The translations under genes were made by a program, and so were the position numbers. From Microbacteriaceae bacterium (GTDB lineage Bacteria; Actinomycetota; Actinomycetes; Actinomycetales; Microbacteriaceae), in assembly GCA_025464975.1 (NCBI GenBank), contig JAODMT010000020.1, positions 62,001-126,000 of the forward strand: a stretch of 64,000 nucleotides of DNA. The letters run 5' to 3'. The notes below the pieces were generated by a model. The model ran no database searches. It saw nothing but the letters and a program-made list of their open reading frames with translations, and had not been told where the DNA came from. This document shows, piece after piece, positions 19,438-41,737 of the stretch. Numbering within the stretch: the first letter of the stretch is position 1; each line of letters opens with the position of its first letter.

Positions 19438-19660
19438 GCTCCGTGGCACGGTCGGTTTCCCGACGGCCGCCGAGGATCGCATCCAGCCGCAAATGGGCGG
19501 TGTCATTTCTGCGCGGCCCGACAGCTGAAAACGCAGGACATTCACCACCAACGGGGCAACTTCCGCCGCGTGGTGCCCGTGGAGTGGTGATTTTCCTGCG
19601 TTTTCGGTAGGCGGGTGCCCTGGAAACGACTCCGGCCACAGGCCGAGCGACGAGGCGCCG
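19438..19660. other. Gap between convergent genes, containing a palindromic repeat
   Basis: Apart from the palindromic repeat at 19527-19605, described separately, no gene or terminator is seen. Confidence 0.4.
19527..19605. repeat. Palindromic repeat element, copy 1
   Basis: Left arm at 19527-19548 (begins GAAAACGCAGGA, ends TTCACCAC) and right arm at 19584-19605 (begins GTGGTGA, ends CCTGCGTTTTC) are inverted copies matching at 20 of 22 bases. The 35-base centre contains a second weak stem (ACGGGGCA / TGCCCGT). A second copy with the same arms but an unrelated centre is at 41646-41724. It lies between the convergent htrA and FBP genes and may also act as a terminator. Confidence 0.75.
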
Positions 19661-20179
19661 TCATGCCTCGCCCGCCGCATCCGGCCGTGAAGCGTTGCCA
19701 AGGACCGCGCGCGCGAATCCCTGGGCACGAACGCGAAGGTCGATGACTCGTTTCTCTCGAGCCGCGTCGACGTCGAAGCCGATGTACGCGAGCGGAGGTC
19801 GCTTCCGCACGTTCGCTGAGCAGCCAAAGTTCGCGCAGATCAGGGTGCCAACAGTGTCGCCTTTCCTGCCTGATTGACCGGCTCGCTTCGCACCGTAGAA
19901 CACGACCTCGTTCGTGAGATTGACGTCCTGACACCACGAGCACTGCGCCCGGGTGCGGGGAACTGCTTCGGCCTGCCTGAGCAGGACACCGACGGGGGAG
20001 CCGTCGAGCCAGACGAAGACGTAGGCGCGGCGCGGCGCCTTGCGGTCGCGCCAACCAAAGCAGTCCAAACGGTCCCAAGCGGTTGTGGCGAAATCGAGCG
20101 GTAGTGCGAGGTCGCTGATCTCCTTGCGGGAGGCGTTGACGAATGAATACTGGATCTGTGTTTCTGTCAATGGGAGCAT
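19661..20179 (-). CDS. FBP (EF-G-binding/FusB-like) treble-clef zinc-finger protein
   Basis: A 172-residue protein with an N-terminal four-helix part and a C-terminal treble-clef zinc site made by Cys80 and Cys83 (QCSWCQD) and Cys115 and Cys120 (LICANFGCS). This is the signature of the FBP domain family related to FusB, which binds elongation factor G and rescues it from fusidic acid. It is common in actinomycetes without proof of resistance function. It is single-gene, convergent with htrA across the palindromic repeat. Confidence 0.85.
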   Translation of the reverse strand: MLPLTETQIQYSFVNASRKEISDLALPLDFATTAWDRLDCFGWRDRKAPRRAYVFVWLDGSPVGVLLRQAEAVPRTRAQCSWCQDVNLTNEVVFYGAKRAGQSGRKGDTVGTLICANFGCSANVRKRPPLAYIGFDVDAAREKRVIDLRVRAQGFARAVLGNASRPDAAGEA

Positions 20180-20500
20180 GAAGGATCACCAATCGAATCG
20201 ACCCCTTGGCCGGGGTCGTGTTGGCGGGCAGTTGCCCGCGGTTACGTTAGAAGGTCGCGTTCCAATGAATCGCGGCGCGCAAGGCCAGCCTGATTCAGGG
20301 TGTGTTCCTCGCAGTATGCGGCGAGGATGATCGTCGAATTGGTGACGTTACCTCTCGCCGGCGAGAGAGACGCCGACGACCTCCTCACGCCCTGCGGGCG
20401 GTGGGAGGAGCGAAAACAACATGTCGCAACCGTATCAAACGTGCCCGGAGCCCGATTATGGTGGTGGCTTGCTGGATGCGGCACCGCTTAGGTTTGCTCC
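20180..20500. other. Intergenic region, nothing assigned
   Basis: A short frame on each strand crosses this 321-base stretch but none has coding character. It must contain the promoters of the FBP gene (minus) and the LysE gene (plus). A small perfect palindrome CTCGCCGGCGAG near 20357 is the only structure I noticed. Confidence 0.4.
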
Positions 20501-21130
20501 GTGACCCTCACCACAACGCTGCTGCCTGCCCTGCTGGGTCTCGGCACCGGCCTCGCCCTCATCATCGCGATAGGTGCCCAGAACGCGTACGTTCTCCGGC
20601 TCGGGATCGAGGGTCGCAACCGCGTCATCCTGCCCGTCGTTCTGGTGTGTGCGCTCTCAGATGCGGTGCTCATCGCGGCCGGCGTGCTCGGAATCGGCGC
20701 CATCGTTCAGAGCGCGCCGGTGGCGCTGGTCGTCATCCGGGTGATCGGTTCAGGCTTTCTCGTCGTCTACGGCATTTTCGCTGCGGTACGGGCATTCCGC
20801 CCGAAGGTGCTCGAACCGACGGATGCTCCGGGGCAGGTCTCATTGCGGGCTGCCGTCGGAACAATGGTCGCTCTCACATGGCTCAATCCGCACGTTTACC
20901 TCGACACCGTGATCTTCCTCGGCTCCGTCGCCAACCAGCAGGGTGTCGACGAGCGCTGGTGGTGGGCAGCGGGTGCGGCCACCGGCAGCTTCATCTGGTT
21001 CTTCGGCCTCGGGTTCGGCGCACGGCTGCTCCGACCGTTCTTCGCGAGGCCGGGAACGTGGCGCATCCTGGACGCGTTCATTGCGGCCGTGATGCTGTTC
21101 CTCGGCATCCGGATGGCGGTCGGCTTCTAG
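20501..21130 (+). CDS. LysE/ArgO-family amino acid exporter
   Basis: A 209-residue membrane permease with six predicted helices. The family signature IIAIGAQNAYVLRLGI lies near residues 22-37 and LTWLNPHVYLDTVIFLG near 126-142, both hallmarks of the L-lysine/arginine exporters. It likely pumps basic amino acids out of the cell. Translation starts at a GTG directly following GGTTTGCTCC. No LysG-type activator is adjacent, unlike the corynebacterial lysEG pair. Confidence 0.9.
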   Translation: MTLTTTLLPALLGLGTGLALIIAIGAQNAYVLRLGIEGRNRVILPVVLVCALSDAVLIAAGVLGIGAIVQSAPVALVVIRVIGSGFLVVYGIFAAVRAFRPKVLEPTDAPGQVSLRAAVGTMVALTWLNPHVYLDTVIFLGSVANQQGVDERWWWAAGAATGSFIWFFGLGFGARLLRPFFARPGTWRILDAFIAAVMLFLGIRMAVGF

Positions 21131-21134
21131 GCGA

Positions 21135-21971
21135 TTATGCGGGGAGACACGCTAGCGGCCCACCATCCCAGCCGATTCTGAAGTTCTGGATGCGCTCCTC
21201 GGGCGAACCATGGTCTCCTGGCATTCCCCACGGGCTGCTGTCCGCGATGTCGGTAAGCCCGGTTTCAATCTCTTGGAGATCTCCTTCTTCGAGCTGAAGG
21301 GTGCCGTCATTCACTCCGCCATCCAGCGCGGCGCCGGCGAAGCAATCCGCCTGCAATTCCGCTGCTATTGATTGGCTGGCTGCACTCAACCGGTATTGGA
21401 TTGCGTGGCCCCACTCGTGCGCAACGATCATGTACACGAACATGTCGCCGTTGTACCGAGCGCGACCCAAGAAATTGACGTCGTAGGCAACCCAGTCGTC
21501 GCCGTCGGCACAATACGCCGCGTTATCCGGGCCGAGAAGCGCGCCCCCGCAAATCACGACGTCCACCGTGCCGTCATACAACCCGGCCGCGCGGTCGGGC
21601 ACCGAAATCAATTTCGGCGGGACGTAGCTGCCCGGGAAGAAGTCGGCCCAATGCGCTGTCCAGTACTGATTCACGACTTGGAGAGCGCCGTAGTAGTCCT
21701 GGTAGAACTCCTCGGACGTGTACGGTGCCGGAGCGGTAGCGGCGGTGGGGGGCGCCGCCGCGGTAGCGACTCCGCGGCTTAGAGAAAGCGCGGCCCTACT
21801 GTTCGGGCTCGACAGTGCAGGCGATTCGGGTTCGGGGCTCGGTTGCACCGTCTCTTGTGATTTGGGGCTCTGGCTGTTTGTGTCGGAGGAGCCGTAGGCG
21901 CTACCGCCCGCGAAGCCGGTCAACGTCAGCGTCACCGCGGTGGCGATGACACTCAGACGTGATGGAATCAT
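21135..21971 (-). CDS. Secreted YpfJ-like neutral zinc metallopeptidase
   Basis: A 278-residue exported protein. A signal peptide spans about residues 1-28, followed by a Ser/Pro/Ala-rich linker to about 85. The catalytic motif is HEWGH (185-189) and AELQADCFAG near 206 supplies the third zinc ligand, as in the putative neutral zinc metallopeptidase family COG2321. AAAGGAG eight bases before the ATG at 21971 fixes the start. Target proteins are unknown. Confidence 0.88.
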   Translation of the reverse strand: MIPSRLSVIATAVTLTLTGFAGGSAYGSSDTNSQSPKSQETVQPSPEPESPALSSPNSRAALSLSRGVATAAAPPTAATAPAPYTSEEFYQDYYGALQVVNQYWTAHWADFFPGSYVPPKLISVPDRAAGLYDGTVDVVICGGALLGPDNAAYCADGDDWVAYDVNFLGRARYNGDMFVYMIVAHEWGHAIQYRLSAASQSIAAELQADCFAGAALDGGVNDGTLQLEEGDLQEIETGLTDIADSSPWGMPGDHGSPEERIQNFRIGWDGGPLACLPA

Positions 21972-22131
21972 CTCGTCATCTCCTTTTTTAGAAAAGATGA
22001 TCCGCGCTTTGTGCCTCGCGTCTAGGGGAAGTGGGGTCGGAATCCCGCAATTAAGACCGGTCGGGTCCCGGCACGCGTCGTCGCCGCACAACCGGCACGG
22101 GGGAGCGCCCCTGATTCCGAGCCGGTCCTCG

Positions 22132-22830
22132 TCACTCGAGGGGCGGCGCGGCGGGTGCGCTTTCGACGATTGCGAAGCCTCGTCCGCGGAGGCGACGACG
22201 TTCCTCAGACAGGAAGCGCAGGGTTCGCTCGGTAGTTCCACGATTGTGTGCCAGTACCAGCGCTACGGCACGGTCTGCGTCGCGAAGTCGCAAGGCGGCG
22301 ACGATGGCGCGGTGTTCGTCCCTCGCTTGCTTGCGGGACTCTGCCGTTCGCACCTCAAGCCAGCGGGTTCGCAACAGGCGGGTCATCACTCCGCGGATTG
22401 ACTCTGCCATGAACGAGTTCCCGGAGAGCTGAGCCAGCAGGGCGTGGAAGTCGCTGCCGGACTGGATGCCTTCTTCCTCTGTCGCGAACTCGGCGTCGTC
22501 ATCCAGCGAACTGGAGAGCGCCAATAGGTCGCTATGTGAGGCACGCTCCGCCGCCAGGCGAACCGCTGCCGCCTCAACCGCCTCGCGGTACTCAGACAGC
22601 GCGCGAATCTCGGTCAGGTCGATCGGCGTAACACACCACCCCCGGCCATCCCGTCGCACGAGGCCGGCGGCCTCCAGGCGAAGAAGGGCCGCCCGAATCG
22701 GAGTGCGCGATGCGTCAAGGTCTGCCTCCAGACCACGCTCGGTCAGCTTCTCGCCCGGCACATAGCCCAACGAGAGGATCGCGGCGCGAAGCCGGTCATA
22801 CAACGAGCCTCCCGCGATTAAATCGGACAT
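22132..22830 (-). CDS. GntR-family regulator with FCD ligand domain
   Basis: A 232-residue transcription factor. The winged helix lies at about residues 10-70 (LTERGLEADLDASRTPIRAALLRLEAAGLV) and the C-terminal FCD all-helical domain at about 78-215, with FHALLAQLSGN and AHNRGTTER contributing metal-site positions typical of the group. It is divergent from an MFS transporter and probably represses it in response to a small organic acid. Confidence 0.88.
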   Translation of the reverse strand: MSDLIAGGSLYDRLRAAILSLGYVPGEKLTERGLEADLDASRTPIRAALLRLEAAGLVRRDGRGWCVTPIDLTEIRALSEYREAVEAAAVRLAAERASHSDLLALSSSLDDDAEFATEEEGIQSGSDFHALLAQLSGNSFMAESIRGVMTRLLRTRWLEVRTAESRKQARDEHRAIVAALRLRDADRAVALVLAHNRGTTERTLRFLSEERRRLRGRGFAIVESAPAAPPLE

Positions 22831-22918
22831 CGGTGACCTTTCAGGTTCTTGGGATACCAAGTTGGTGCGCACAATCGTATACCGTAGGTCGGGACCAATC
22901 GTTTCAGGAACGGAAAGA
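22831..22918. promoter_or_regulatory. Divergent promoter between GntR and MFS genes
   Basis: The 88-base gap contains the palindrome GTGCGCAC at 22865-22872 inside TTGGTGCGCACAA and the sequence GTATAC near 22877-22882. These are candidate GntR operator and promoter elements; FCD-type GntR proteins bind short palindromes with TnGTnnnACnA-like arms, which fits only loosely. Confidence 0.35.
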
Positions 22919-24139
22919 ATGCACACAACGACGGCCAAAACGTCAACTGTCGTTCCGGCTCGTGCGTGGAGTATGCTCACGCTCGGCGTCGCGGCGCAAG
23001 TCGCCGGCACCGTCTTCGTCAGCACGCCGGCCTTTCTGATCCCGCTTCTGCACACCGAACGCGGCATCCCCCTCGCCCAGGCAGGCCTGCTCGCCTCGGC
23101 GCCGACAATCGGCATGGTGCTCACGCTCGTGGCCTGGGGTGCACTCGCCGACCGCTTCGGCGAACGATGGGTCATTTCAATCGGTCTCGCGCTGACGGCC
23201 GCGGCCGCCGTCGGAGCGCTCGCGGCCAGCAGCTTCACCTCACTCGCGGTCTTCTTTCTCCTGGGAGGCGCTGCGTCGGCGAGCGCGAATGCGGCCAGCG
23301 GGCGGGTGGTCGTCGGATGGTTCCCGCGGGAGCGCCGCGGACTCGCAATGGGCATCCGACAGATGTCGCAACCCCTCGGGGTCACCGTCGCCGCCGTGGC
23401 GGTGCCTGGATTGGCATCCGCAGACGGCATCGGGGCGGCCGTCGCCCTGTCGTTGGCCGTTAATGCCGTACTAGCGATCGTTTGCGCTATTGGGATCGTC
23501 AACCCCACCCGCCCGACCGCTGTTCGCGGGGGCGCCGTGGCCACTGCGGTGGCAAACCCGTACCGGTCGAGCTCGTTCCTCGTTCGCATCCACGCGGTCT
23601 CCGTGCTGCTGGTCGTGCCCCAGTTCACCCTCTCGATATTCGGGATCGTCTGGCTCGTGTCGGAAATGCATTGGAACGCAACCGGGGCCGGCATCCTCAT
23701 CGGGGTTGCCCAGTTCATCGGCGCGATCGGGCGTATCGGGATGGGAGTCTTGAGCGACCGGGTCGGAAGCCGAGTTCGAGTTCTCCGTTGGGTGGCCGTC
23801 GCCGGATGTGTTGCGATGCTCGCCGTCGCCGCCACCGATCTGGTCGGCTGGGGTCCGGTGGCAGCGGTGGCGTACATCGTCGCCACGACGATCAGCGTCG
23901 CGGACAACGGCCCCGCCTTTACTTCCGTCGCCGAAGCAGCGGGAACGCGCTGGTCCGGGAAAGCCCTCGGGATGCAAAACACGGGTCAATTCCTTGCCGC
24001 GTCCGCCGTCGGGCCACTGGTAGGTGCCCTCATCGCCCTGATCGGATACCCGTTGACGTTCGCCACGATTGCAGTGGCCCCCGCCCTGTCCATTCCCCTG
24101 ATACCGATCAAGGACAGGGCGGAACCAAGCGGGCCGTGA
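22919..24139 (+). CDS. Major facilitator superfamily transporter
   Basis: A 406-residue permease with twelve predicted helices. The inter-helix 2-3 loop reads GALADRFGERW, and the second half repeats it as GVLSDRVGSRVRV, both typical of MFS carriers. ATG at 22919 follows AACGGAAAG; an upstream TTG would add 19 unsupported residues. It resembles the oxalate/formate and aromatic-acid type MFS groups, but no substrate can be named. Regulation by the divergent GntR protein is likely. Confidence 0.85.
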   Translation: MHTTTAKTSTVVPARAWSMLTLGVAAQVAGTVFVSTPAFLIPLLHTERGIPLAQAGLLASAPTIGMVLTLVAWGALADRFGERWVISIGLALTAAAAVGALAASSFTSLAVFFLLGGAASASANAASGRVVVGWFPRERRGLAMGIRQMSQPLGVTVAAVAVPGLASADGIGAAVALSLAVNAVLAIVCAIGIVNPTRPTAVRGGAVATAVANPYRSSSFLVRIHAVSVLLVVPQFTLSIFGIVWLVSEMHWNATGAGILIGVAQFIGAIGRIGMGVLSDRVGSRVRVLRWVAVAGCVAMLAVAATDLVGWGPVAAVAYIVATTISVADNGPAFTSVAEAAGTRWSGKALGMQNTGQFLAASAVGPLVGALIALIGYPLTFATIAVAPALSIPLIPIKDRAEPSGP

Positions 24140-24140
24140 C

Positions 24141-25067
24141 TTAGCCCTTCTCGCCGCCCTCGGTGGTGTTCATGATCTTCCGCTGGAAGATGAAGAAGAT
24201 CACGGCGACCGGAATGGTCATGAGGATGGCGGCAGCGAGCTTCAGCGGGAACTGATTGCCAGAGCCCAGTTGCCCGGAGAACAGGCCAGCGATGCCCGTG
24301 GTGAGCGTGCGAAGTCCCGGGCTCTGCGTTGACACGATGAAACTGCCGAATTCGTTCCAGGAGCCCTGAAAGCTCAGGATGAAGAGGGTCACCAGTGCGG
24401 GACGGGCCATCGGCAGCACGATGGTCCAGAAGGTACGGAAGATGCCGGCTCCGTCGATCCGCGCGGCTTCCTCCACGCTCACCGGGATGGACTCAAAGAA
24501 CTGTTTCATGATGAAGATGCCGCCCGCGTCGACGATGAGCGGGATGATCATCCCCATATAGGTGTCGTACATGCCGAACTGCTTCAAAACGAGGAAACGC
24601 GGGATGAGCAGCACCACGTTCGGCACCGACATGACGGCGATCAGGCTGCTGAAGATGAGTGTGCGTCCGCGAAAACTAAGGCGTGACAGCGCATACGCGG
24701 CGAGGGAGTCGAGAAACACGCGGCACACCGTCACGACCACAGTGACGATGATCGAGTTCATCGCCCAGAGGGGGAGCGGCACATTCGTGAACAGCCTCGT
24801 GTACGCGGCGAACGACCAGTCCCGCGGAATCAGTTGCAGCGGATTGGCGGTGGCGTCGGCATCCGTCTTGAAAGAGCCCGAGAGCGCCACCAGGAACGGG
24901 TAGATGTAGATTGCCGCGAAGAGGATGAGCATCGCGTAGCTGAGGATCGGCCCGACACGGTATCGCTGCCAGGCCGAGCGACGGCCGGCCCGGCGAACCG
25001 GCAGCTGCGCCTTGATCGTCGCCTGGATGGCGGTGTCGACCTCGGCGGGAAGAGCTGTCGTGCTCAT
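24141..25067 (-). CDS. ABC sugar transporter permease, MalG type
   Basis: A 308-residue integral membrane permease with six helices. The ATPase-coupling EAA loop is EEAARIDGAGIFRTFWTIVLPM. Its start overlaps the stop of the MalF-type gene as ATGA, and it is the last gene of the LacI-binding protein-permease-permease operon. No ATPase gene is linked, so the locus probably shares a general MsiK-type ATPase encoded elsewhere. Confidence 0.92.
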   Translation of the reverse strand: MSTTALPAEVDTAIQATIKAQLPVRRAGRRSAWQRYRVGPILSYAMLILFAAIYIYPFLVALSGSFKTDADATANPLQLIPRDWSFAAYTRLFTNVPLPLWAMNSIIVTVVVTVCRVFLDSLAAYALSRLSFRGRTLIFSSLIAVMSVPNVVLLIPRFLVLKQFGMYDTYMGMIIPLIVDAGGIFIMKQFFESIPVSVEEAARIDGAGIFRTFWTIVLPMARPALVTLFILSFQGSWNEFGSFIVSTQSPGLRTLTTGIAGLFSGQLGSGNQFPLKLAAAILMTIPVAVIFFIFQRKIMNTTEGGEKG

Positions 25068-26206
25068 TGTGCACCGCCGTTCGATCGGATGCTGTCGTCG
25101 CGCAGCAGTCTCGCCAGCGGCTTGTCGAGCCGCTCCTTGTTGCTGCGGTCGCGCAGGATGATGCGCTGCAACGCGGTCAGCACGACAATGATCGCGAACA
25201 GGATGAACGAGATCGCTGCGCCATCGCCCCAGTTGAGGCTCTTGAACGAGGTCTGATAGGCGAGGAACGCAGGGGTCAGGGTCGTATTTGCCGGCTTGCC
25301 TCCGCCGAGGATATAGATCTGGTCAAAAATCTGCCAGGTACCAATGAGCCCGAGGGTCAACACGGTGAACAGGATCGGCTTGAGCATCGGAAGGGTCACT
25401 CCGAAGAACTTGCGGAACGGACCTGCCCCGTCCACGAGCGCCGCCTCCTCAATCTCGCCACCGATGTTCTGAAGCGCCGCGAGGAACAGCAGCATGAAGG
25501 TCCCGGATGTCGTGAAGACCACCAAAATGATGATCACGCACATGGCGACGCTTGGCCCGGACAGCCAGTCCCACCAGCTCAACTCGAGCAGCGCTGTGCC
25601 CGAAAGCGCCGGCGGATTGTTGCCCACTCCGAACCAGCTGGCGACGATGTGGAAGATGCCCCGAGAGTCCGCGAACCAGGTCGGGCCGGTGCCGCCGAGC
25701 GCCGCGATGATCTGGTTGACCGCGCCGGAACTGGCGAACAGGAAGATGAAGATTCCGGTGATGGCGACGGCGCTGGTGACGGACGGGAAGTAGAACGCCG
25801 TGCGGAAGAAGCCACGGGCGCGAAGAAGCCGCCGGTTGACCTGCACCGCAAGGAACAGGGCAATCGCCGTCTGCAGCGGCACGACGAAGACGACGAACCA
25901 GAGGTTGTTGCGAATGGAGGTACCGAAGGTTTGCTCGGCCAGCCCGCCAGCGGTCAGCACGCTCTGGTAGTTCTTGGCGCCGACGAAGCCAACCTGCGAG
26001 TTGATCGGCGAGCCGAGACCGCTCCAGTCGCTGACGCTCACCCACAGCGCGAGGAAGATCGGCAACACAAGGAAGACGCCGATGATGATGATCGCCGGTG
26101 CGGTGAACAACCAGCCGTAGCGGCCCTCGCCGGAGCGGATGCCATTGCCGCGGGTGGGCCTCTTGTCCCCTCGGCGGGCAGCGTGGGGCAGGGCATTCGC
26201 GGTCAT
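25064..26206 (-). CDS. ABC sugar transporter permease, MalF type
   Basis: A 380-residue permease with six or more helices and the EAA loop IEEAALVDGAGPFRKFFGVTLP. An upstream part of the open frame has no hydrophobicity or homology and is left out; the ATG at 26206 starts MTANALPHAARR. It is coupled to the MalG-type gene by a four-base overlap. It forms the channel for the substrate delivered by the lipoprotein. Confidence 0.9.
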   Translation of the reverse strand: MTANALPHAARRGDKRPTRGNGIRSGEGRYGWLFTAPAIIIIGVFLVLPIFLALWVSVSDWSGLGSPINSQVGFVGAKNYQSVLTAGGLAEQTFGTSIRNNLWFVVFVVPLQTAIALFLAVQVNRRLLRARGFFRTAFYFPSVTSAVAITGIFIFLFASSGAVNQIIAALGGTGPTWFADSRGIFHIVASWFGVGNNPPALSGTALLELSWWDWLSGPSVAMCVIIILVVFTTSGTFMLLFLAALQNIGGEIEEAALVDGAGPFRKFFGVTLPMLKPILFTVLTLGLIGTWQIFDQIYILGGGKPANTTLTPAFLAYQTSFKSLNWGDGAAISFILFAIIVVLTALQRIILRDRSNKERLDKPLARLLRDDSIRSNGGAQ

Positions 26207-26270
26207 CTCTGGCACCGTGGTGCATGAGTTCCGATCACGATGTGCCCTGCCTTCCGCTGCCTGTCGTCTT

Positions 26271-28606: not shown

Positions 28607-28627
28607 GCCGCCTCCTTTGGCTGCTTT

Positions 28628-32113: not shown

Positions 32114-32115
32114 AT

Positions 32116-32459: not shown

Positions 32460-32783
32460 AATGAAACGCGCGAGGTCGAGATCGATCGACTCTTTCAGGC
32501 CCTCGCTGATAGCACTCGCCGCGACATCGTCACGCGGGTAATTACGCGCGAACAGTCGGTCTCCGACCTGGCGCGCCAGTACGCCATGAGCTTTGCCGCC
32601 GTTCAGAAACACGTGGCTGTGCTCGAGCGGGCGATGCTCATCACCAAGGAACGTCGGGGGAGGGAGCAGATCGTGCATGGCGACCCGAGCATGTTGCGCA
32701 CGGCCGCTCGACTGCTCGAGGAGTACGAGGAGATCTGGCGCGCCCGAGCACAACGCATCGATCAGATCCTTGCCGAAGATTGA
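32451..32783 (+). CDS. ArsR/SmtB-family helix-turn-helix regulator
   Basis: A 110-residue winged-helix protein. The motif SVSDLARQYAMSFAAVQKHVAVLERA is the recognition region. Metal-binding cysteines (CxC) of SmtB-type sensors are absent, which matches the subgroup that is paired with AHSA1-domain proteins. No Shine-Dalgarno is seen, consistent with a leaderless start. It is followed by an SRPBCC gene 14 bases after its stop. Confidence 0.88.
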   Translation: MVVNETREVEIDRLFQALADSTRRDIVTRVITREQSVSDLARQYAMSFAAVQKHVAVLERAMLITKERRGREQIVHGDPSMLRTAARLLEEYEEIWRARAQRIDQILAED

Positions 32784-32797
32784 GAAAGGAGTGTGTC

Positions 32798-33292: not shown

Positions 33293-33323
33293 GACCAAAT
33301 TCCGAGCCGCTACACTCTCGGGT

Positions 33324-33989: not shown

Positions 33990-35233
33990 GCGCCGACACC
34001 GCGGCCGAACTACGCAAGGCCTCGCTGCGGCTCGCCCTCCTGACCGGCATACTGCTTGTCATCCTTCTCGCGATCTCGGGCGCAACAGTGCTGTACGCGG
34101 TGAGCGCTGGCCAACAGGAAGCGACAACACACACTCTGATCGATGTAACCGAGAATGTGGATCAGCCAAACGAAGCGCCGACCGGGGTCTGGGTCGTTAT
34201 CGACCGGCCGAACTTCGTTCGTGCGTCTTCTGCCGGTATCCCAACTGGCTTCCCCGACGAAACCGCAATCAGGAGGGTCTCGGCAGGCGCCGCCCCGATC
34301 ACCAGCCACACGAGCCTTCACGGCCACGACTACGTGGTTAGAACTGCGAAAACGCAGGGGCGCACTGTCCAGGCGATTGTCGACCAGCGTGAGAATTCCG
34401 AAGAACTAGGGCGGGTAGCGAGGGCGCTCGCCCTCGCTGGCGGGACGGCGATCATCCTTTCTAGCGTGCTGGCAATCTGGCTTGCCCGGCGAACCCTGCG
34501 ACCGATGGCGCACGCTCTCGCCCTCCAACGTCGGTTCGTGATGGATGCCAGCCACGAGCTTCGCACCCCGCTCACCCTGTTGAGTACCCGGGTGCAGCTA
34601 CTTCGCCGCAGGATCGGTGGGGCCTCGGTTGAGGACGTGCTCAGGGATATCGATCGGGTGGTCGAGGATTCGAGAGAGCTCACTGAGATTCTCGACGACC
34701 TCCTCATCGTCGCCGACACTCGAGAGAACGGGGCGCGCGAGCCGGTTGATCTGGCACTGCTCGCCGACGAACTGGTGGCCAGGGCGACGCCCCTCGCGGA
34801 GGAGCGTGGCATTTCGCTCGCGCGGACGGGTCAGCGATCGGGGGCGATGGTGACCGGAGCGCCTGTTGCCTTCGGACGGGCGATTGTCGCGCTCGTGGAC
34901 AATGCCATCGACTTCGCCAAATCCCGTGTTGACGTGCGCATCGAGACCGAGAAGGACGTCGTGGTCATCGTGGTCTCAGACGACGGGCCGGGCTTTCCGC
35001 CAGGCTCCACGGACACGCTGTTGAACCGATTCGCCTCGCACCGCGAACCCGAAACCAACGGTCGACGACACTACGGCATCGGTCTCGCGCTGGTGGCAGA
35101 AGTGGCGAAGCGTCACAGAAGTTCGTTGATCCTCACCAACGCCGAGAATGGTCGGTCGGGCGCCGTAGTCAGGCTGCGGGTGCCAACCACCGGCGCACGT
35201 CGCCCCCGTCGAGGAGATCGCCAGCGTCGGTGA
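33986..35233 (+). CDS. Sensor histidine kinase
   Basis: A 415-residue membrane kinase. Helices at about residues 15-40 and 148-168 flank an extracytoplasmic sensor loop of about 100 residues. The H-box DASHELRTPL places phosphorylated His190; the ATPase part shows N-box VDNAIDFA, and G-boxes DDGPGFPPGS and HYGIGLALV. It starts with TTG overlapping the regulator's stop (TTGA). Its last 65 bases overlap the 3' end of the convergent apbE gene. Confidence 0.9.
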   Translation: MSADTAAELRKASLRLALLTGILLVILLAISGATVLYAVSAGQQEATTHTLIDVTENVDQPNEAPTGVWVVIDRPNFVRASSAGIPTGFPDETAIRRVSAGAAPITSHTSLHGHDYVVRTAKTQGRTVQAIVDQRENSEELGRVARALALAGGTAIILSSVLAIWLARRTLRPMAHALALQRRFVMDASHELRTPLTLLSTRVQLLRRRIGGASVEDVLRDIDRVVEDSRELTEILDDLLIVADTRENGAREPVDLALLADELVARATPLAEERGISLARTGQRSGAMVTGAPVAFGRAIVALVDNAIDFAKSRVDVRIETEKDVVVIVVSDDGPGFPPGSTDTLLNRFASHREPETNGRRHYGIGLALVAEVAKRHRSSLILTNAENGRSGAVVRLRVPTTGARRPRRGDRQRR

Positions 35234-35918
35234 CCGCGAGGACTGCGCAGTCGTAGCGCTCCGCGGCCCAGCCCACCCCCACTTCACCCATTGCGTAGAC
35301 GGTTGTCGCCAAAACGTCGGCGACCGTAAGATCTGCCGAGATCACCGAAACGCTCGTCAGGCCGTGCGCGGGTCGCCGCGTTCTGCCGTCGACGATGTGG
35401 CGCCCACGTTCGTACGATCCTGAGGTCGCAACGCTCATGTCGGTGAGCGCAACGACCGCGATCATGGATTCGGGGGACTCAGGAGAGCGAACTCCCACGT
35501 TCCACGGCCGTCCAGGTTCCGGATGTCCCGCGGCGATCACATCACCGCCCGCGTTGAGACAGAAGTTGTGAAGGCCGTGAGACCGGAGCACTCCGGCGGC
35601 TTGGTCCGCCGCCCAGCCCTTGACTATGCCGTTGAGATCCCACCGTTCGTCGGCATCGTGCAGTGTGAACGCGCCGCCGGACACGGTGCTGAACTTTTCG
35701 GCGAGAGACAGCACCTCGATGAACTGATCGCCGGCGGCATCGAGCGTCAGCTCCGCCCGATTGAGTCGGCTGATCTCAGTGTCCGGACGGTAGGTGCTGA
35801 AGATGCTGTCGGCTCGACGTAGCTCGCCGAAGGCCTCGTCCACAGCAGGCCTGTGGTCGCCTTCGTCGCGAATGTCAAACGAGATGGGCAGACCCATCAC
35901 CGTTTCCACGTAGCGCAT
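35169..35918 (-). CDS. apbE: FAD:protein FMN transferase (ApbE family)
   Basis: A 249-residue enzyme that attaches FMN covalently to a threonine on partner proteins. The family core is present: ISFDIRDE strand, RADSIFSTYRPDTEISRLNR, GGAFTLHDADERWDLNGIVKGWA and LNAGGDVIAAG (about residue 120). A predicted signal peptide is not evident, so it may act at the membrane from inside or rely on another route. It follows the FMN-binding gene with a TGATG junction, and its substrate is probably that protein. Confidence 0.88.
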   Translation of the reverse strand: MRYVETVMGLPISFDIRDEGDHRPAVDEAFGELRRADSIFSTYRPDTEISRLNRAELTLDAAGDQFIEVLSLAEKFSTVSGGAFTLHDADERWDLNGIVKGWAADQAAGVLRSHGLHNFCLNAGGDVIAAGHPEPGRPWNVGVRSPESPESMIAVVALTDMSVATSGSYERGRHIVDGRTRRPAHGLTSVSVISADLTVADVLATTVYAMGEVGVGWAAERYDCAVLAVTDAGDLLDGGDVRRWLAPAA

Positions 35919-36430
35919 CAGCCGAGCTTATCGATCGCAGACTGAACCGATTGCAGGTACCCGTCGGAGGTGTAAGTCGCGCCGCTGACGCTGTCGACCC
36001 GTGCCGATTGGGACTGCAGGACCTCCTGTTGGAGGATCGGCACCGAGTAGCTGGCGATCTCCTGATCCCGCCCACTTTCCTGGGGCACCTGGAGAACATC
36101 AATTTTCGTGATCGTCTTGCCGGAAAACGTGACCTTCACCTGAACGTTGCCGAACCTCGTTTGCACGGCGTTTCCCGTCACGGTTTGCACGGCAGTCGAT
36201 GCCGCCGCCGACGGGGACGGCGCCGGTGCCGCGGCGGAGGTGCCTGACGGTGAGGGTGACGGTGCCGCGCCCGACGAATCGGTGCTCGTCGAACCGGTGC
36301 CCGCGGCCGATTGTGATGTCGTTGCGATCGGCTGAGAGCCGGTCGAGTAGAACTTCAGCCCGAACGTCGCCCCAAGCACGGCGAGAATCGAAAGGAACAG
36401 GGTGGTGCCTCGCCATTTGCGTTGCTTCAT
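35918..36430 (-). CDS. FMN-binding domain protein, likely flavinylated by ApbE
   Basis: A 170-residue exported protein. An N-terminal signal-anchor (about residues 8-28) is followed by a Ser/Pro/Ala-rich spacer to about 82 and an FMN-binding domain. The sequence DSVSGATYTS at 146-155 contains the ApbE target motif in which Thr152 would carry FMN. It lies between ApbE and the ferric-reductase-like protein, so it probably carries electrons outside the membrane. Confidence 0.88.
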   Translation of the reverse strand: MKQRKWRGTTLFLSILAVLGATFGLKFYSTGSQPIATTSQSAAGTGSTSTDSSGAAPSPSPSGTSAAAPAPSPSAAASTAVQTVTGNAVQTRFGNVQVKVTFSGKTITKIDVLQVPQESGRDQEIASYSVPILQQEVLQSQSARVDSVSGATYTSDGYLQSVQSAIDKLG

Positions 36431-36446
36431 TTCTTCGTCCTACCTC

Positions 36447-37805
36447 TCACGCCATACTCAGCTCTTCGCGATGAATCATTTGAACCGGCAAGCCAAGCGA
36501 GCGCAGTGACGCTTCGACCGTGGTTGCCATTCCGGTAGGTCCGCAGATGTAAACCTCCCGGTCGCGAACGTCGCGCACCAAGCGGCGCAACGCCTTCGGA
36601 TCAAACGGGTCACCACCGAGTTCGCGCCTGCTGCCCACGACCGTGTGAATGGTAATGGGGCTCAGTGCCCGGAGTTCGTGTTCGAGTGCCAGGCCATTGA
36701 CGGGTGTGCTGCGATAGACGACCACGACGTCGCGGCCGTGCCGCACGAAGTCCTCCGCCAACGCCCGGATGGGCCCGATGCCCGCTCCGCCGGCAATCAG
36801 GAGGATCTTTCGGCGGGTACTTCGAGCGGCGGTGAATATGCCGAACGGGCCCTCTGCGAAGACCAGCGTTCCTGGCTTCAGGTGGCGAAACTGTGAGGTG
36901 TGATCGCCCAACGCTCCGACGCTGATTCGTAGCACCTTTCCGTCCGGAGCCCGAGACAGGGAGAACGGGTGCGCCGTCAGCAAATGCCCGCGTGTGAGAA
37001 ACCGGAAGAGAAAGAACTGTCCAGCGACCGCCTTCATCTCGTGCAGCCGCTTTCCCTCCAGCCAGACGCTGATGATTCCGGCGCCCTCATCCACCACGCT
37101 GAGCACGCGTAGCCGGTGTCGCCAGGCTGCCATAGCGGGAAGGATCACGCGCCAGGTCAGCACCGCTGAGGCCGTTGCGAGATACAGCGCGATCCATGCC
37201 GCCCGGTTGAGGGGATTGGAGTCGAAGTGCACCCCGGCGCTGATCTGATGCAGGAAGGTCAGGAAGACCGCAACGTACGCGGTGGTATGCAGCCAGTACC
37301 AAATCTCGTAGGACAGTTTCTGCCGGGGGATGCGCGCGCTTGAGATGCCGATTGCCCAGAAGAGAAGCGTGCCGATGAGTGCGGTCAGCATGTCTGGATA
37401 GGTGGTCAAGACGGCGAAAGTAGCGGTCCACGGTGCTTGGGAGGCGATGAGCTGTTGCCCGAAGATCATCGCAATCACATGGGTCACGATGAGAAAAAGA
37501 ACGGAGGCACCGAGAGTGCGATGCCAGGCCACCAGGTGGTCCATTCCTATGGCTCGTTCCAGCCACGGCACTCGCGCGATCAGGAGCACCTGGATGCAGA
37601 CCAAGAAGCCGCCGACCATCCCGGTAAGTTCCCCGAAGGAGGTCACGGTGGCGCCTGGTGTAGTGATGAAGGGGCCCGGCCCGCCGGCCCACCACATCAC
37701 GATGACGATGAGCACGCCCAGAACGATGACACTTCGCAGGAGCCGCCCGGTCCGGACGGACGAGGACGATCGTAGCGCGCTGGGTCGGGCTGCATACGTT
37801 GTCAT
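36447..37805 (-). CDS. Ferric-reductase-like transmembrane protein with ferredoxin-reductase domain
   Basis: A 452-residue membrane flavocytochrome. The N-terminal region has six helices with paired histidines (HRTLGASVLFLIVTH and WLHTTAYVAVFLTFLHQ) that likely bind two haems. The C-terminal part is a FAD/NAD(P)H-binding reductase module: AHPFSLSRAP (FAD site), LIAGGAGIGPIRALAE (NAD site) and CGPTGMATTVEASL. It probably passes electrons from NAD(P)H through the membrane to the FMN-binding protein. The gene precedes it with a 16-base gap. Confidence 0.88.
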   Translation of the reverse strand: MTTYAARPSALRSSSSVRTGRLLRSVIVLGVLIVIVMWWAGGPGPFITTPGATVTSFGELTGMVGGFLVCIQVLLIARVPWLERAIGMDHLVAWHRTLGASVLFLIVTHVIAMIFGQQLIASQAPWTATFAVLTTYPDMLTALIGTLLFWAIGISSARIPRQKLSYEIWYWLHTTAYVAVFLTFLHQISAGVHFDSNPLNRAAWIALYLATASAVLTWRVILPAMAAWRHRLRVLSVVDEGAGIISVWLEGKRLHEMKAVAGQFFLFRFLTRGHLLTAHPFSLSRAPDGKVLRISVGALGDHTSQFRHLKPGTLVFAEGPFGIFTAARSTRRKILLIAGGAGIGPIRALAEDFVRHGRDVVVVYRSTPVNGLALEHELRALSPITIHTVVGSRRELGGDPFDPKALRRLVRDVRDREVYICGPTGMATTVEASLRSLGLPVQMIHREELSMA

Positions 37806-37884
37806 AGTTTTGAGGCTACGGAGCGCTTCTTAGAAGAATCTTTCCCACGCTGCGTGGCGGCTGGGATTGGCTTATGAATGGCCT

Positions 37885-37973
37885 ATGGCTGATCCTCCGG
37901 CGGATTCCTGTTTCACGAGCCCGATGAACGCGCGGGACACGGCTGGCCGATTCCTGTTCGAGGGAATAGCGAG
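37885..37973 (-). pseudogene. Duplicated LysR-gene 3' end
   Basis: These 89 bases match 38828-38916 (the tail of the LysR gene) at 79 of 89 positions without gaps. In the minus frame they read LAIPSNRNRPAVSRAFIG, close to the LysR C-terminus LAIPSHRNLSAVSRAFIG, and continue to a stop (GGSAIGHS). The matching stretch ends exactly at the stop codon of the lipoprotein gene. It is a remnant, with no start or regulator body upstream. Confidence 0.75.
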
Positions 37974-38735
37974 TCAGCCACCATAGGGCTCGAGAATTTG
38001 AACTGGCGAACCGTTCGCCTCGCAGAGCTGTTCGACGATGTGAGTCGCAGCGTTGAACGAAGACGGGCCGGATTCTCCAAAATCGCCCGGTTTCGCGTCG
38101 GGGGCGGTGACGGCGCGCGTCAGGACCGCGAGCTGACCGCGCAGCATCCCCGTTGTCGGTTCCAGAACGCGAAGGTCGCCCGCGGCTTTCTTCATCCTCG
38201 CGGCCCAGACGACCGCGGTCACGTCGTGATGCGCGTATCCCTGGTCCGCGGCCTGGATCGCGGTGCCGACCTTGGACAGCGCGTCACAGTTGGCCGCCAG
38301 GCCTTCGTTGTGAGCCGCTCGGGTGGGGAGAAAGGTGACGGTCATCGCGAACGAAGTGGTGTCATCGACGGTGACGTTCACCTGCGGGAAGGATGTCGCG
38401 ACATCGACCGTGTACGTGGCAAGGTGTCCGCACCCTCCCGAGCGACCTCCGCCTACTGTTGGGTTGATAACGAGGTTGTAGACCGCCAGGTGTACGTCCG
38501 TGCAGGCGAACGCGATACGCATCGACTCTGCACCCTGGGGAATGTCGATCTTTTCCCTCGTCTGGCCCGTGCCGGTAAAGGCCAACTCGTGCCAGTGCGC
38601 GGGCGTCTTTGCGGTCTGCCGCGAAGATACTGCGGAACCGGCTTGGTCGGAAGCGCATCCACTCAGCGCCACAGCCACCAAGGCGGCGCCGAGCCCGATG
38701 AATGCGATGGCGCGCGCTGATCGCACTGAAAGCAT
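37974..38735 (-). CDS. Lipoprotein of unknown function
   Basis: A 253-residue exported protein. The signal peptide ends in the lipobox LSGC (about residue 26), predicting a lipid anchor on the outer face. The mature part holds a conserved-looking core (CTDVHLAVYNLVINP, a Gly-rich loop, YTVDVATSFPQVNVTVDD) and a later helix-rich section. No domain is recognised. The ATG at 38735 gives a proper signal peptide; an upstream Met would spoil it. The gene is bracketed by the LysR tail and its duplicate. Confidence 0.75.
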   Translation of the reverse strand: MLSVRSARAIAFIGLGAALVAVALSGCASDQAGSAVSSRQTAKTPAHWHELAFTGTGQTREKIDIPQGAESMRIAFACTDVHLAVYNLVINPTVGGGRSGGCGHLATYTVDVATSFPQVNVTVDDTTSFAMTVTFLPTRAAHNEGLAANCDALSKVGTAIQAADQGYAHHDVTAVVWAARMKKAAGDLRVLEPTTGMLRGQLAVLTRAVTAPDAKPGDFGESGPSSFNAATHIVEQLCEANGSPVQILEPYGG

Positions 38736-38832
38736 GATTTCCCCGATTCCCCGGGCCATCCTGCCACCGCTTTCGTGGTGTGTCGAGGATTTCCCGTCTA
38801 TGGGCCGCCTGGGGATCGTCGATCCGCATGGC

Positions 38833-39726
38833 TCATCCTCCGTTGGATTCCTGTTTCACGAGCCCGATGAACGCGCGGGACACTGCCGACAGATTCCTGT
38901 GTGAGGGAATGGCGAGCGAAATGTCGAGCGCGAGCGATGGTTGGACCGGGACCAGCCGGATTTTCGACTGGTCAACCCGACCCGATCTAGGCAAGAATCC
39001 CAATCCGAGACCAGCGCTCACCAGCTCGGCAAGGGTCGACAGATCGGCGACTTCCACCGTCACTTGACGCTGGGCATTTGCGCGGGCGAAGGCGAGGTCG
39101 GTCGCGAGCCTGGTGCCCCAGCCGGATGGGCTTTCGACAAAGGTCTCACCATCCAGTTCCTCAATCGAGACGACAGGGCGAGATTCGAGCGGATGTCCCG
39201 GAGGCACCGCGAGAAGAATCGGGTCCGAGGCTAGCGCGATCAACTCAATGCCAGCCGGCGCGTGCAGGTGCCCGGGCACGGAGACAAAAGCAAGATCAAG
39301 TTCATCCCGTTCGACGTCAAGGATGAGCTCCGTCGATCCGCCGCTCGTCGGTCTCGGGAGAAGCTGTACCCCTGGACGCTCACGATGGAATCGAGTGAGG
39401 AGTCCGGCGAGGTCGATGACGCCAAGAGACTGCATGATGCCAAGGCGGAGAGTTCCTCGGAGGCCTCCGATGGCCGAATTCACGGCGTCCCAGGCCGCTT
39501 CGGCGGCCGCAATCGTCTTGCGGGCCTCGGGAAGGAGCACGTGTCCCGCGTCGGTCAGGTCGACCTGGTGTGTTGTGCGTCGAAAGAGGTCGGTGCCCAA
39601 CTCCCTTTCGAGGGTCTTGATTGACACCGATAGGGCCGACTGAACCAGATTGAGGCGGCGCGACGCCCGGGTGAAGTTCCGCTCTTCCGCAACCGCCACG
39701 AAATGCTCAAGCCGCCTCAGTTCCAT
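38833..39726 (-). CDS. LysR-family transcriptional regulator
   Basis: A 297-residue activator/repressor. The winged helix starts MELRRLEHFVAVAEERNFTRASRRLNL and the effector domain has two alpha/beta subdomains with LLAVPPGHPL and LGFLPRSGRV. It is divergent from an MFS transporter with palindromes between, the classical LTTR arrangement. An open frame extends upstream but runs into the MFS gene. The inducer is unknown. Confidence 0.9.
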   Translation of the reverse strand: MELRRLEHFVAVAEERNFTRASRRLNLVQSALSVSIKTLERELGTDLFRRTTHQVDLTDAGHVLLPEARKTIAAAEAAWDAVNSAIGGLRGTLRLGIMQSLGVIDLAGLLTRFHRERPGVQLLPRPTSGGSTELILDVERDELDLAFVSVPGHLHAPAGIELIALASDPILLAVPPGHPLESRPVVSIEELDGETFVESPSGWGTRLATDLAFARANAQRQVTVEVADLSTLAELVSAGLGLGFLPRSGRVDQSKIRLVPVQPSLALDISLAIPSHRNLSAVSRAFIGLVKQESNGG

Positions 39727-39841
39727 GCCAATCCATTCTAAATTTAGATAACTGTTGTGTTTTCTATTCGTTGGACAGAATAGCCGATGTTGGACAGGGT
39801 AGAAGAATGACAAATTCCACCCACGCCGAGACGACCATCTA
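39727..39841. promoter_or_regulatory. LysR/MFS divergent control region with two palindromes
   Basis: TCTAAATTTAGA at 39737-39748 is a perfect 12-bp palindrome. CTATTC-N8-GAATAG at 39764-39783 has the T-N11-A pattern typical of LysR-type binding sites. Both are in the 115-base gap between the divergent genes. Assigning one as the activation and the other as the repression site is inference. Confidence 0.55.
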
Positions 39842-41083
39842 ATGAGTGCACAGACTTCCGGGAGTAACGACAGGCCGAATCGCAGGAGCGCGCGGGCACA
39901 CCACTGGGGCTTTTGGGTCGCGGCGGTTGCCTTTCTGTTGAACATGGCATTTTCTGCTGTTCCAACTCCGCTGTACGCGATCTATGCTGCCCGGGACGGG
40001 TTGAACAGCGTCACAATCACCTTGATCTACGCCGTCTACGCCGTTGGCGTCATTGCCAGCCTGTTCTTCGGCGGTCACGTCTCTGACTGGATCGGCCGCA
40101 AGGTCGTCTTCGTCCCCGCGCTCCTGCTGAACGTGGTGAGCGCCATCGTGTTCATTTTGTGGCCGAGCCTGGCAGGGCTGATCGTGGCACGCATCATCTC
40201 CGGGGTTTCGGTGGGACTCACAACGGCAACGGCGACCGCCTACCTGGGCGAGTTGCATGTCGGTGCACGCCCCGGGGTCCACGGGCGTCGAGCCCAAATA
40301 GTGGCCATCGCCGCAAACCTTGGCGGCATTGGCGTGGGGCCGCTCATTGCGGGTTTCTTGGCGCAATACGAACCTGACCCGCTTCGGCTGCCGTACATCG
40401 TCTTCGGGATTGCGATTGCCGTGTTGGCGATTCTCGTCGGTCTCTCTCCCGAAACTGCTCTGATCCAGACTCCCATTCCCCCCTACCGCCCACAGCGGAT
40501 CGCGGTCCCGAAGACTTCCCGCGGGACCTTCTACAGTGCGGCGGCGGCCGGCATCGCCGCCTTCGCGGTTTTCGGCGTCTTCAACTCGCTCGTGCCGTCG
40601 TTCCTGGTCGACAGCATGCACGAGACATCCCACGCAGTGGCCGGGGCGGTTGCCTTCGCCGCCTTCGCCGCGGGCGGCTTGGCTCAGATCGTGTTGGCGC
40701 GGTGGGACACCCGCACGATGCTCCGGCGAGCCGTCCCGATCTTGACTGTAGGCCTGGCCTTGTTCGCCGCCGGAATGTGGTTGCCGAGCGTCGTGGTGTT
40801 CGTCGTCGGTGGCATCGTGACTGGCGCCGGGGCTGGTCTAATTTTCCGGGCAGCGATGGTCACTGCCGGTTCCGCGGCGCTCCCGGAAGCTCGAGCCGAG
40901 GTACTCGCCGGTTTCTTCCTCGGCGCCTACATCGGCCTATCTGTGCCGGTGATTGGTTTGGGAATCGCGACGCTGTATTTCCCGCCTCGGGATGTGATGC
41001 TCGTTTTCATCGTTCTCGTTCTGGCCGCCCTCATCGCAGCGGTCGTGAGCATCGTGCGGCGGCCGGAGATTCGACCGGCCTAG
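39842..41083 (+). CDS. Major facilitator superfamily transporter
   Basis: A 413-residue permease with twelve predicted helices. The helix 2-3 loop reads GGHVSDWIGRKVVF, and the sugar-porter-like gate motif YLGELHVGARPGVHGRRAQ near 135-153 supports an MFS drug or metabolite carrier. It starts with MSAQTSGSN at 39842. It is likely controlled by the divergent LysR protein. A strong bidirectional terminator follows. Confidence 0.88.
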   Translation: MSAQTSGSNDRPNRRSARAHHWGFWVAAVAFLLNMAFSAVPTPLYAIYAARDGLNSVTITLIYAVYAVGVIASLFFGGHVSDWIGRKVVFVPALLLNVVSAIVFILWPSLAGLIVARIISGVSVGLTTATATAYLGELHVGARPGVHGRRAQIVAIAANLGGIGVGPLIAGFLAQYEPDPLRLPYIVFGIAIAVLAILVGLSPETALIQTPIPPYRPQRIAVPKTSRGTFYSAAAAGIAAFAVFGVFNSLVPSFLVDSMHETSHAVAGAVAFAAFAAGGLAQIVLARWDTRTMLRRAVPILTVGLALFAAGMWLPSVVVFVVGGIVTGAGAGLIFRAAMVTAGSAALPEARAEVLAGFFLGAYIGLSVPVIGLGIATLYFPPRDVMLVFIVLVLAALIAAVVSIVRRPEIRPA

Positions 41084-41110
41084 CCGCACGCTCAACCAAT
41101 GCTTTGCTCC

Positions 41111-41143
41111 ACTCTCGCCGACGGCCAAGCCGTCGGCGAGAGT
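41111..41143. terminator. Bidirectional hairpin terminator
   Basis: ACTCTCGCCGACGGC at 41111-41125 and its exact reverse complement at 41129-41143 form a perfect 15-bp stem with a three-base loop (CAA). It sits between the stops of convergent genes (41083 and 41146), where a two-way terminator is expected. There is no long T-run, so function rests on the stem. Confidence 0.75.
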
Positions 41144-41145
41144 GA

Positions 41146-41403
41146 TCAGCGCGCGAGCTTGTAGACGTAGTCGGAGAGCTTGCCGACAAGGCCCTTGAGA
41201 CCATGTGGCGTCGATCGCTCCGACGTTAGGTGAAGATATGACCTGTCGAGGGTGCCGTCGGGGTGGAACTCCTCGACGAATAGCACCGCAGCCCATTCGG
41301 ACACAACGATGTTGCGGCCGCCCTGCTTGGCGCGAGCGTAGTCGGCGAGTGCCTCGACGAGTACCTCGTCCGGAGTACGCTGGGTGGTCTCATTGGAGTG
41401 CAT
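41146..41403 (-). CDS. Small hypothetical protein
   Basis: An 85-residue protein starting MHSNETTQ, chosen because GAAGGA lies six bases before this ATG, although an in-frame Met at 41433 exists. It contains DEVLVEALADYARAK, a short hydrophobic VVSEWAAVLFVEEF and a basic C-terminus. No family is recognised. It ends 3 bases past the bidirectional terminator. Confidence 0.6.
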   Translation of the reverse strand: MHSNETTQRTPDEVLVEALADYARAKQGGRNIVVSEWAAVLFVEEFHPDGTLDRSYLHLTSERSTPHGLKGLVGKLSDYVYKLAR

Positions 41404-41737
41404 AACCTGTCCTTCCGAAATTTCCTTCGGCAATCATAAGAGATCCGATGTTTCGGGCAGGTGAATGGTCATACTATTTTCGCTAGGAACGCGCTGGGAG
41501 TTTGCCGGGTGGCCTCCACCGTGGGCGGCACCGAACGCGCCCCGGCCACGTTCAACGAAAGCGCGGTCCCGTCGTCGCTCGTCGGGGATCAGGGGAGCGG
41601 CAATTCGAGCGCCGCCGACAGCAGGCCGTCGGAATGGCTGTCACCGGAAACGCAGGAGTTTCACCACAGAACAGCGCGACACCACGCCAAATTCGCCCGG
41701 CGGTGGTGAATGTCCTGCGTTTTGGGTTGGGGAACGC
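41404..41737. other. Intergenic region containing the second palindromic repeat
   Basis: No gene is supported. Its only notable content is the palindromic repeat at 41646-41724 and the promoter zone of the small gene on the left. Confidence 0.4.
41646..41724. repeat. Palindromic repeat element, copy 2
   Basis: Left arm at 41646-41667 (GGAAACGCAGGA...TTCACCAC) and right arm at 41703-41724 (GTGGTGAATGTCCTGCGTTTTG) are near-inverted copies. The right arm's complement matches copy 1's left arm at 21 of 22 bases, yet the 35-base centres share no clear similarity. It lies 14 bases from the end of the MetX-like gene, again at a 3' end. Confidence 0.75.

Follow-up and report, generated by a model that had tools for sequence, protein, structure and literature searches.

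A dispersed family of paired half-sites in Microbacteriaceae and its probable partnership with an AbiEi-like nuclease gene

What maintains a palindrome whose arms match from copy to copy and whose centre does not? This question arose from a 64,000-nucleotide stretch of a Microbacteriaceae bacterium genome (assembly GCA_025464975.1, contig JAODMT010000020.1, positions 62,001 to 126,000 of the forward strand), hereafter the window. It contains two 79-bp elements with inverted arms, element 1 (19527..19605) and element 2 (41646..41724). The initial annotation took them for members of a dispersed family, perhaps a miniature inverted-repeat transposable element (MITE) or a repetitive extragenic palindromic (REP)-like sequence, with arms under selection or gene conversion and a possible role as bidirectional terminators. 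Here we report that this genome contains at least 47 such elements, the two in the window included, that their arms are under selection, and that such elements flank a gene that probably encodes a winged-helix nuclease. We consider it probable that the genome-wide elements belong to this resident gene, in a relationship like that of REPINs (REP doublets forming hairpins) with REP-associated tyrosine transposases (RAYTs) but with an unrelated enzyme.

Results

Each element consists of inverted half-sites at nearly fixed spacing, an outer AAAACGCAGGA and an inner TCACCAC. In element 1, the left outer half-site AAAACGCAGGA (19528..19538) and the left inner half-site TCACCAC (19542..19548), both on the plus strand, are followed by a 35-bp centre (19549..19583) and, on the minus strand, by the right inner (19584..19590) and right outer (19594..19604) half-sites; counted from AAAA to TTTT, the element is 77 bp. 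Element 2 has a left outer half-site GAAACGCAGGA (41647..41657) and inner half-site TCACCAC (41661..41667) on the plus strand, a 35-bp centre (41668..41702), and right inner (41703..41709) and outer AAAACGCAGGA (41713..41723) half-sites on the minus strand. The sequence thus agrees with the positions, 22-base arms and 35-base centres first described. Allowing up to three mismatches, the arm pattern matched the window five times, four of these being the arms of elements 1 and 2 with no mismatch; shuffled sequences gave a mean of 0.20 matches and a maximum of 2.

Across the whole 3.22-Mb genome (G000), the same search gave 53 + 53 matches, compared with 4 + 2 for a reversed control pattern. A script assembled these into 46 full elements, and looser matching gave 47. 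The core from AAACGC to GCGTTT measured 75 bp in 40 elements and 74 bp in seven. When the 40 longer elements were aligned, the outer arm positions were nearly invariant and the 35-bp centre, which is nearly fixed in length and free in sequence, held little information. The arms start with AAAA and end with TTTT, and a few bases just outside them are also conserved. By a crude gene caller, 46 of the 47 elements are intergenic, lying between codirectional (25), convergent (16) or divergent (5) genes; the divergent share was not clearly different from that of the window background (p 0.13). Any signal of target-site duplication among the 47 copies stayed within the level of shuffles. Copying has occurred, as indicated by the likeness of centre and flank among some copies and by tandem arrangements at two loci. 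The centres had been described as unrelated. This is so between most loci, but the centre of element 1 can still be recognized in its ortholog in the sister genome G012 (L220), and the similar copies within the genome are a further exception. The tandem pairs lie at L047:3061-3262 and L042:3046-3270, the copies being 124 and 147 bp apart; a contig of the sister genome (L226) ends inside a tandem-pair region, making the comparison incomplete there.

The elements also occur in relatives. The exact outer pattern was present in seven of 299 genomes of the family (39 in G000, 13 in G002, 4 in G003, 18 in G007, 6 in G034, 11 in G056 and 2 in G084; control, 0), and a survey of the genus showed that the inner motif varies by genome. 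Among the matches listed were elements in Lacisediminihabitans profunda and in metagenome-assembled genomes labelled Rhodoglobus, Salinibacterium, Homoserinimonas and Frigoribacterium. With arms found genome-wide and in relatives, and with no tie to one gene end, the proposal of a dispersed repeat family holds. A wider search returned at least 101 stretches, and 12 of the 101 listed came from outside Microbacteriaceae (seven Flavobacteriales, four Phycisphaerae and one Lachnospiraceae). We took the latter as unrelated, since the Flavobacteriales matches were near-identical copies of two stretches and the others were few and dissimilar (80 of the 101 sequences were read). In three genomes of genus g12 (G165, G214 and G295), many of the listed elements contain in their centre an extra copy of the half-site, either as ACGACGGA or as the complement.

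To compare the arms with their surroundings, we used G012, which is 64% complete and holds 26 elements. We chose 19 pairs of G012 and G000 elements by flank homology, excluding three with short or weak flank matches. Substitutions affected 4 of 418 positions (1.0%) in the outer arms, 5 of 114 in the 3-bp spacers and 8 of 266 in the inner arms, against 88 of 659 (13.4%) in the centres and 607 of 5082 (11.9%) in 150-bp flanks; when the flanks were restricted to 45 bp, 359 of 1510 flank positions differed, a count that includes some alignment noise. The arms are therefore under selection, one of the two causes first suggested for their likeness. The other, gene conversion, is unlikely to have acted on the arms alone, because the centres that lie between them diverge like the flanks. 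The four indels in the centres were all of 1 bp. As indels in the flanks were also mostly of 1 bp, these pairs do not by themselves prove that length is constrained; its constancy over the 47 copies and between genomes does suggest so.

In more distant genomes, the outer arms were kept at orthologous sites while the centre and nearby DNA were scrambled (four of seven inspected pairs). The inner motif can differ at such a site, as in TCACCAC in L041 and TCGCCAC in L082 and L211. An automatic scan for empty sites scored 88 as occupied and flagged 15, counting some loci repeatedly; of seven flagged sites that we inspected, four proved occupied after realignment, two appeared to lack the element and one lay off a contig end.

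The arms are able to pair, and the predicted folds of the elements are strong (z -3.5 to -6.1). There was no covariation between arms: 69.0% of positions paired, compared with 72.2% after shuffling, and the score for covariation was below all 500 shuffles. Pairing in other genomes and groups was likewise at or near expectation. We thus rejected a hairpin, structured RNA or cruciform under selection, since compensatory change is absent despite the strong folds. The arm symmetry can be explained by two independent matches to one half-site motif. Given the lack of both covariation and target-site duplication, candidate paired protein-binding half-sites fit the sequences better than RNA hairpins or classical MITEs.

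Comparing element flanks between genomes revealed one locus with two or three elements around a gene of about 1 kb. In G000, this gene is outside the window (G000:C3:584442-585506) and encodes 355 amino acids from its likely start. At E<1e-89 it was present in ten distinct genomes among 24 genome handles (G011 and G311, and G005 and G306, are apparently the same genomes and were counted as such), and the nine other proteins are 55-67% identical to that of G000. In all ten carriers, a AAACGCAGGA element is present on both sides of the gene, in some cases with a mismatch between arms. Among the 299 family genomes, a member of this nuclease clade was found at E<1e-50 in 16, one per genome in each. 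Checking clade loci for the neighbours manA, galE and gltA, we found manA in 13 of 21 and galE in others. The gene has thus been inherited mostly at one place. The locus in L198 (Microbacteriaceae RYN_102) has a AAACGCAGGA element and galE near a contig end, and no close nuclease homologue was found in that genome.

The gene and its downstream element overlap. In G000, the gene ends inside the element, and the arm encodes the C-terminal RKRR of the protein; the overlap is seen at L020:2820-2851 and in homologues. L245, L248 and L250 likewise have the stop codon within the downstream element, and most clade members have an RKRR-like C terminus. The initial annotation had suggested looking for an autonomous element that shares these ends. 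The nearest candidate that we found is a nuclease gene with an element on either side.

The protein is predicted to combine two domains. An AlphaFold2 model of the G000 protein (predicted local distance difference test 86.4, predicted template modelling score 0.79) matched an AbiEi antitoxin (6y8q; E 1.7e-5) and, with E 3.7e-4, the catalytic domain of I-Bth0305I, a homing endonuclease (3r3p); a sequence profile found 3hrl and 3r3p. Pfam matches among 30 aligned members were to DUF559 (15), AbiEi_4 (13), REase_MTES_1575 (10) and Vsr (1), and also to RAP and AbiEi_3_N; the G000 protein itself had no match to these families at E 0.01. One report describes MTES_1575 as a novel restriction endonuclease domain of the Vsr family (PMC3710099). 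Residues E192, R196, D219, E229 and D231 are invariant in the 30 proteins. Matches of the nuclease-bearing members to curated NCBI families were weak at most. Among the Pfam hits of the gene and its homologues there was no transposase family and no Y1/HUH domain; no search aimed at transposases or at a separate RAYT was made. From the profile and model matches, the C-terminal domain is predicted to be a homing-endonuclease-like nuclease of the Vsr/DUF559 (EDxHD) type, and the likely cognate gene of the elements is one that joins an AbiEi-like winged helix to such a domain.

Arms were compared between protein lineages. Of the 16 family genomes with a clade member, five belong to the CGCAGGA group, and the 11 further homologues are at 41-59% identity. 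Inverted repeats of their own lineage were present on both sides of seven of these genes, on one side of three (a contig end truncates the second flank in G125) and on neither side in G228. The arms are AAAACGAAGGA in G288, G112, G041 and G125, with a T/C variant in G180; AAAACTGAGGA in G053; AAAACGACGGA in G072 and G102; of a CGACGGT form in G020; and GAAAGCGAGGA in G037. Outer-arm types among these homologues include CGAAGGA, CGACGGA, CTGAGGA and GCGAGGA, and the core is again about 77 bp long.

These lineage-specific elements are dispersed as well. Flanking copies included, a degenerate arm pattern matched 20 times in G288, 31 in G125, 18 in G112, 50 in G041, 9 in G053, 78 in G072, 18 in G102, 31 in G020, 19 in G037, 0 in G180 and 1 in G228 (reversed control, 0), so that nine of the 11 genomes have between 9 and 78 matches. 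Two genomes of the same genus that lack a close homologue gave 0 (G004) and 12 (G001; controls, 0). CGA[AC]GGA elements occur in 17 of the 299 genomes, none of which is among the five gene-carrying CGCAGGA genomes. Of the 16 genomes with the gene, 12 have elements matching AAACG[CA][AC]GGA, as do 12 of the 283 without it; the Fisher p of 5e-12 is a guide only, since flanking copies are counted and the test assumes independence of genomes that are related. Several of the patterns were also chosen after the data were seen. The association between gene and elements is strong. Each protein lineage tends to have its own arms, at an almost unchanged element length, and the tracking is imperfect.

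Paralogous genes show the same arrangement. Inverted repeats with 12-bp arms and at most one mismatch lie on both sides of 14 of 16 DUF559-type genes from other clades (L255 and L266 look like one gene counted twice). To obtain a control, we compared 37 of 41 nuclease loci, having dropped three duplicates and one short-flanked locus, with 52 genes of the window. A perfect 12-bp-arm inverted repeat was present on at least one side of 31 of 37 nuclease genes and of none of the 52 controls. With one mismatch allowed, both sides scored in 32 of 37 nuclease genes and 2 of 52 controls, for which the single sides scored in 7 and 8 of 52; this looser criterion admits chance pairs, such as those upstream in L273 and downstream in L281. 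AAATG[AC][AC]GGA elements numbered 26 in G006, 18 in G310, 16 in G307, 9 in G001, 7 in G308, 4 in G003 and 0 in G000 (control, 0), so that six of the seven genomes contain them, and several of those listed flank paralogue genes. In three genomes, paralogous nuclease genes adjoin citrate synthase (L256, L261 and L267), which suggests a second conserved locus.

AbiEi_4 genes were found in 59 of 118 genomes of the class. In a sample of 30 loci from a longer list, one of them from Microbacteriaceae, a perfect-arm inverted repeat was present at 5 of 13 nuclease-type genes, at 1 of 8 long genes that lack the motif and at 1 of 9 short AbiEi-like genes. The repeat-beside-gene rule is thus weaker at class level. 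One nuclease-type AbiEi gene in this sample (L312, G398) has 102-bp inverted repeats on both sides with a shared arm, GAAGTTGATCACTTGA.

Both window elements lie where genes converge. The 3′ end of a trypsin-like/PDZ protease gene (18364..19437, plus strand) is 89 bp to the left of element 1, and that of an FBP_C treble-clef zinc-finger gene (19661..20179, minus strand) is 55 bp to the right. A major facilitator superfamily transporter gene (39842..41083, plus strand) points its 3′ end to element 2, and the 3′ end of an alpha/beta-hydrolase gene (41738..42757, minus strand; a longer open reading frame reaches 43327) is 13 bp to the right. The elements had been placed beside the 3′ ends of minus-strand genes; such ends do adjoin them, but the nearest Pfam-supported plus-strand genes converge there too. 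Small candidate open reading frames lie at 41084-41646, between the transporter gene and element 2. The window also contains an 89-bp direct repeat (37885-37973 and 38828-38916, 89% identical, 943 bp apart), and an Rfam scan of the window gave no match above the gathering score.

Discussion

Our favored interpretation, that the elements belong to the nuclease gene, can be put as a sequence of steps. The winged helix would read the outer half-sites, with a dimer or a pair of proteins bridging about 66 bp. The Vsr-like nuclease domain may then cut or nick the element, and repair-linked copying would spread elements, in certain lineages mainly to the neighbourhood of the gene. Among the non-flanking copies listed on the gene's contig, 4 of 16 in G102 and 4 of 11 in G288 are less than 10 kb from the gene (13 of the 18 G288 elements being listed), which fits local copying in some lineages; in G053, all three copies on the gene's contig are within 100 kb. 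Binding by the same protein may also keep the arms intact. Site by site, this could come about either because binding has a host function or because damaged elements are costly.

Several observations weigh against this interpretation. No copies cluster within 10 kb of the gene in G037 or in G000, no clean empty site was seen among the seven inspected (the two absences are in poorly alignable sequence), and conservation of the arms in place is stronger than expected for purely selfish repeats. Elements and genes can also occur apart. CGCAGGA elements are present, and no close homologue was found, in G002 (13 elements, 98% complete), G006 (3), G012 (26, 64% complete), G310/G010, G312 and G084; some of these genomes are incomplete, but G002 is not. 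Ten genomes with CGA[AC]GGA elements have no protein match at E<1e-50, G001 has its 12 matches with no close homologue, and G180 and G228 carry the gene but have 0 and 1 pattern matches. Nor do arms and proteins always agree. The protein tree puts G288, with CGAAGGA arms, inside a fork of CGCAGGA proteins, and the G288, G180, G228 and G125 proteins are 51-56% identical to that of G000, like some CGCAGGA members. In G084, a AAACGCAGGA element (L084:1501-1577) adjoins a homologue from another clade (1682-2533) that is 45% identical to the L259 protein. Finally, the association is partly built in, because the arm patterns came from the gene flanks, and the related genomes are not independent.

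Alternatively, the protein may have been domesticated as a regulator or chromosome organizer, binding many intergenic half-sites for the host in insulation, termination or nucleoid architecture, with negligible mobility today. The arms are conserved in place, manA adjoins the gene in 13 of 21 clade loci, and 46 of 47 elements are intergenic, with both window copies between converging genes. However, the acidic residues of the nuclease are invariant in the 30 aligned proteins, G102 and G288 have copies clustered near the gene, and similar centres and flanks, as well as tandem copies, imply copying. We regard domestication as possible but rather unlikely. Another idea, that an AbiEi-type defence nuclease has the elements as marks of self on the chromosome or as decoys, draws on the AbiEi-like N-terminal half and on purifying selection at many separate sites. 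As copy number ranges from 2 to 78 between genomes and clustering near the gene in two genomes is not predicted, we consider it improbable.

The AAAA and TTTT ends of the arms, the strong predicted folds and the many copies downstream of genes could describe a bidirectional intrinsic terminator or structured RNA, in which a stem with A- and T-runs ends transcription of converging genes. Such a stem should covary, which the arms do not; it has no need of a near-fixed length with a free 35-bp centre, and it leaves lineage-specific arms beside nuclease genes unexplained. We give it little credence as the reason for the elements, and termination could be a side effect of them. A classical MITE, moved by a standard transposase such as a DDE enzyme, would account for terminal inverted repeats and dispersal. 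The 47 copies lack a target-site duplication above shuffles, the arms are selected in place, and the Pfam hits of the adjacent, flanked gene and its homologues include no transposase family. These results refute the plain form of the MITE proposal, and we regard a classical MITE as very improbable. The REP-like half of the same proposal pointed in the right direction: the elements are paired inverted repeats at constant spacing, dispersed and associated with a gene.

More broadly, we lean towards the view that AbiEi-winged-helix/Vsr-like nucleases form a convergent class of enzyme-repeat systems in Actinobacteria. Genomes would often hold several clades, each spreading private elements of near-fixed length whose arms are re-tuned with the protein, as a RAYT-REPIN analogue derived from a homing-endonuclease-like enzyme. 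Nuclease proteins of the AbiEi_4 type would thereby gain a DNA target that is open to testing and is written in the flanks of the gene itself, and the natural variety of matched proteins and targets among the lineages would serve work on DNA recognition.

How does this partnership compare with known systems? ERIC and NEMIS are dispersed intergenic palindromic repeats. The elements described here are also dispersed intergenic palindromes, but it is mainly their half-sites and spacing that are conserved, and they are linked to a cognate gene. AbiEi antitoxins of AbiE type IV toxin-antitoxin systems (6y8q) resemble the N-terminal winged-helix region of the protein, which differs in carrying a C-terminal nuclease. 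I-Bth0305I (3r3p) and other Vsr-like/EDxHD homing endonucleases share the fold and conserved acidic residues of the C-terminal domain. Unlike these enzymes, the protein has an AbiEi-like N-terminal domain, and its gene is flanked by two complete elements, has many gene-free putative target copies and occupies a conserved chromosomal locus in many genomes.

Among the open-access papers listed in our searches, we found nothing that joins DUF559 or AbiEi-nuclease genes with palindromic repeats. The enzyme-repeat partnership is provisionally new, since only open-access papers were covered; its behavior is REPIN/RAYT-like and its enzyme is not of the kind that defines that system. REPINs and REP sequences are extragenic, dispersed inverted repeat pairs at constant distance, and each repeat type lies beside its own single-copy RAYT gene, near which it clusters (PMC3116915). 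The shared features are many-copy extragenic inverted repeats at constant spacing, a gene beside the repeats, clustering near that gene in some lineages, and a repeat type that tracks the gene type, imperfectly in the case of G288. The differences are that RAYTs are IS200-like Y1 (HUH) tyrosine transposases, as opposed to an AbiEi winged helix-turn-helix with a Vsr/DUF559 nuclease, and that here half-sites in a 77-bp unit show no covariation. If our interpretation is correct, the puzzle posed by RAYTs and REPINs, the long-lasting union of a single-copy enzyme with its repeats, would have a second and unrelated instance in these elements and their nuclease.

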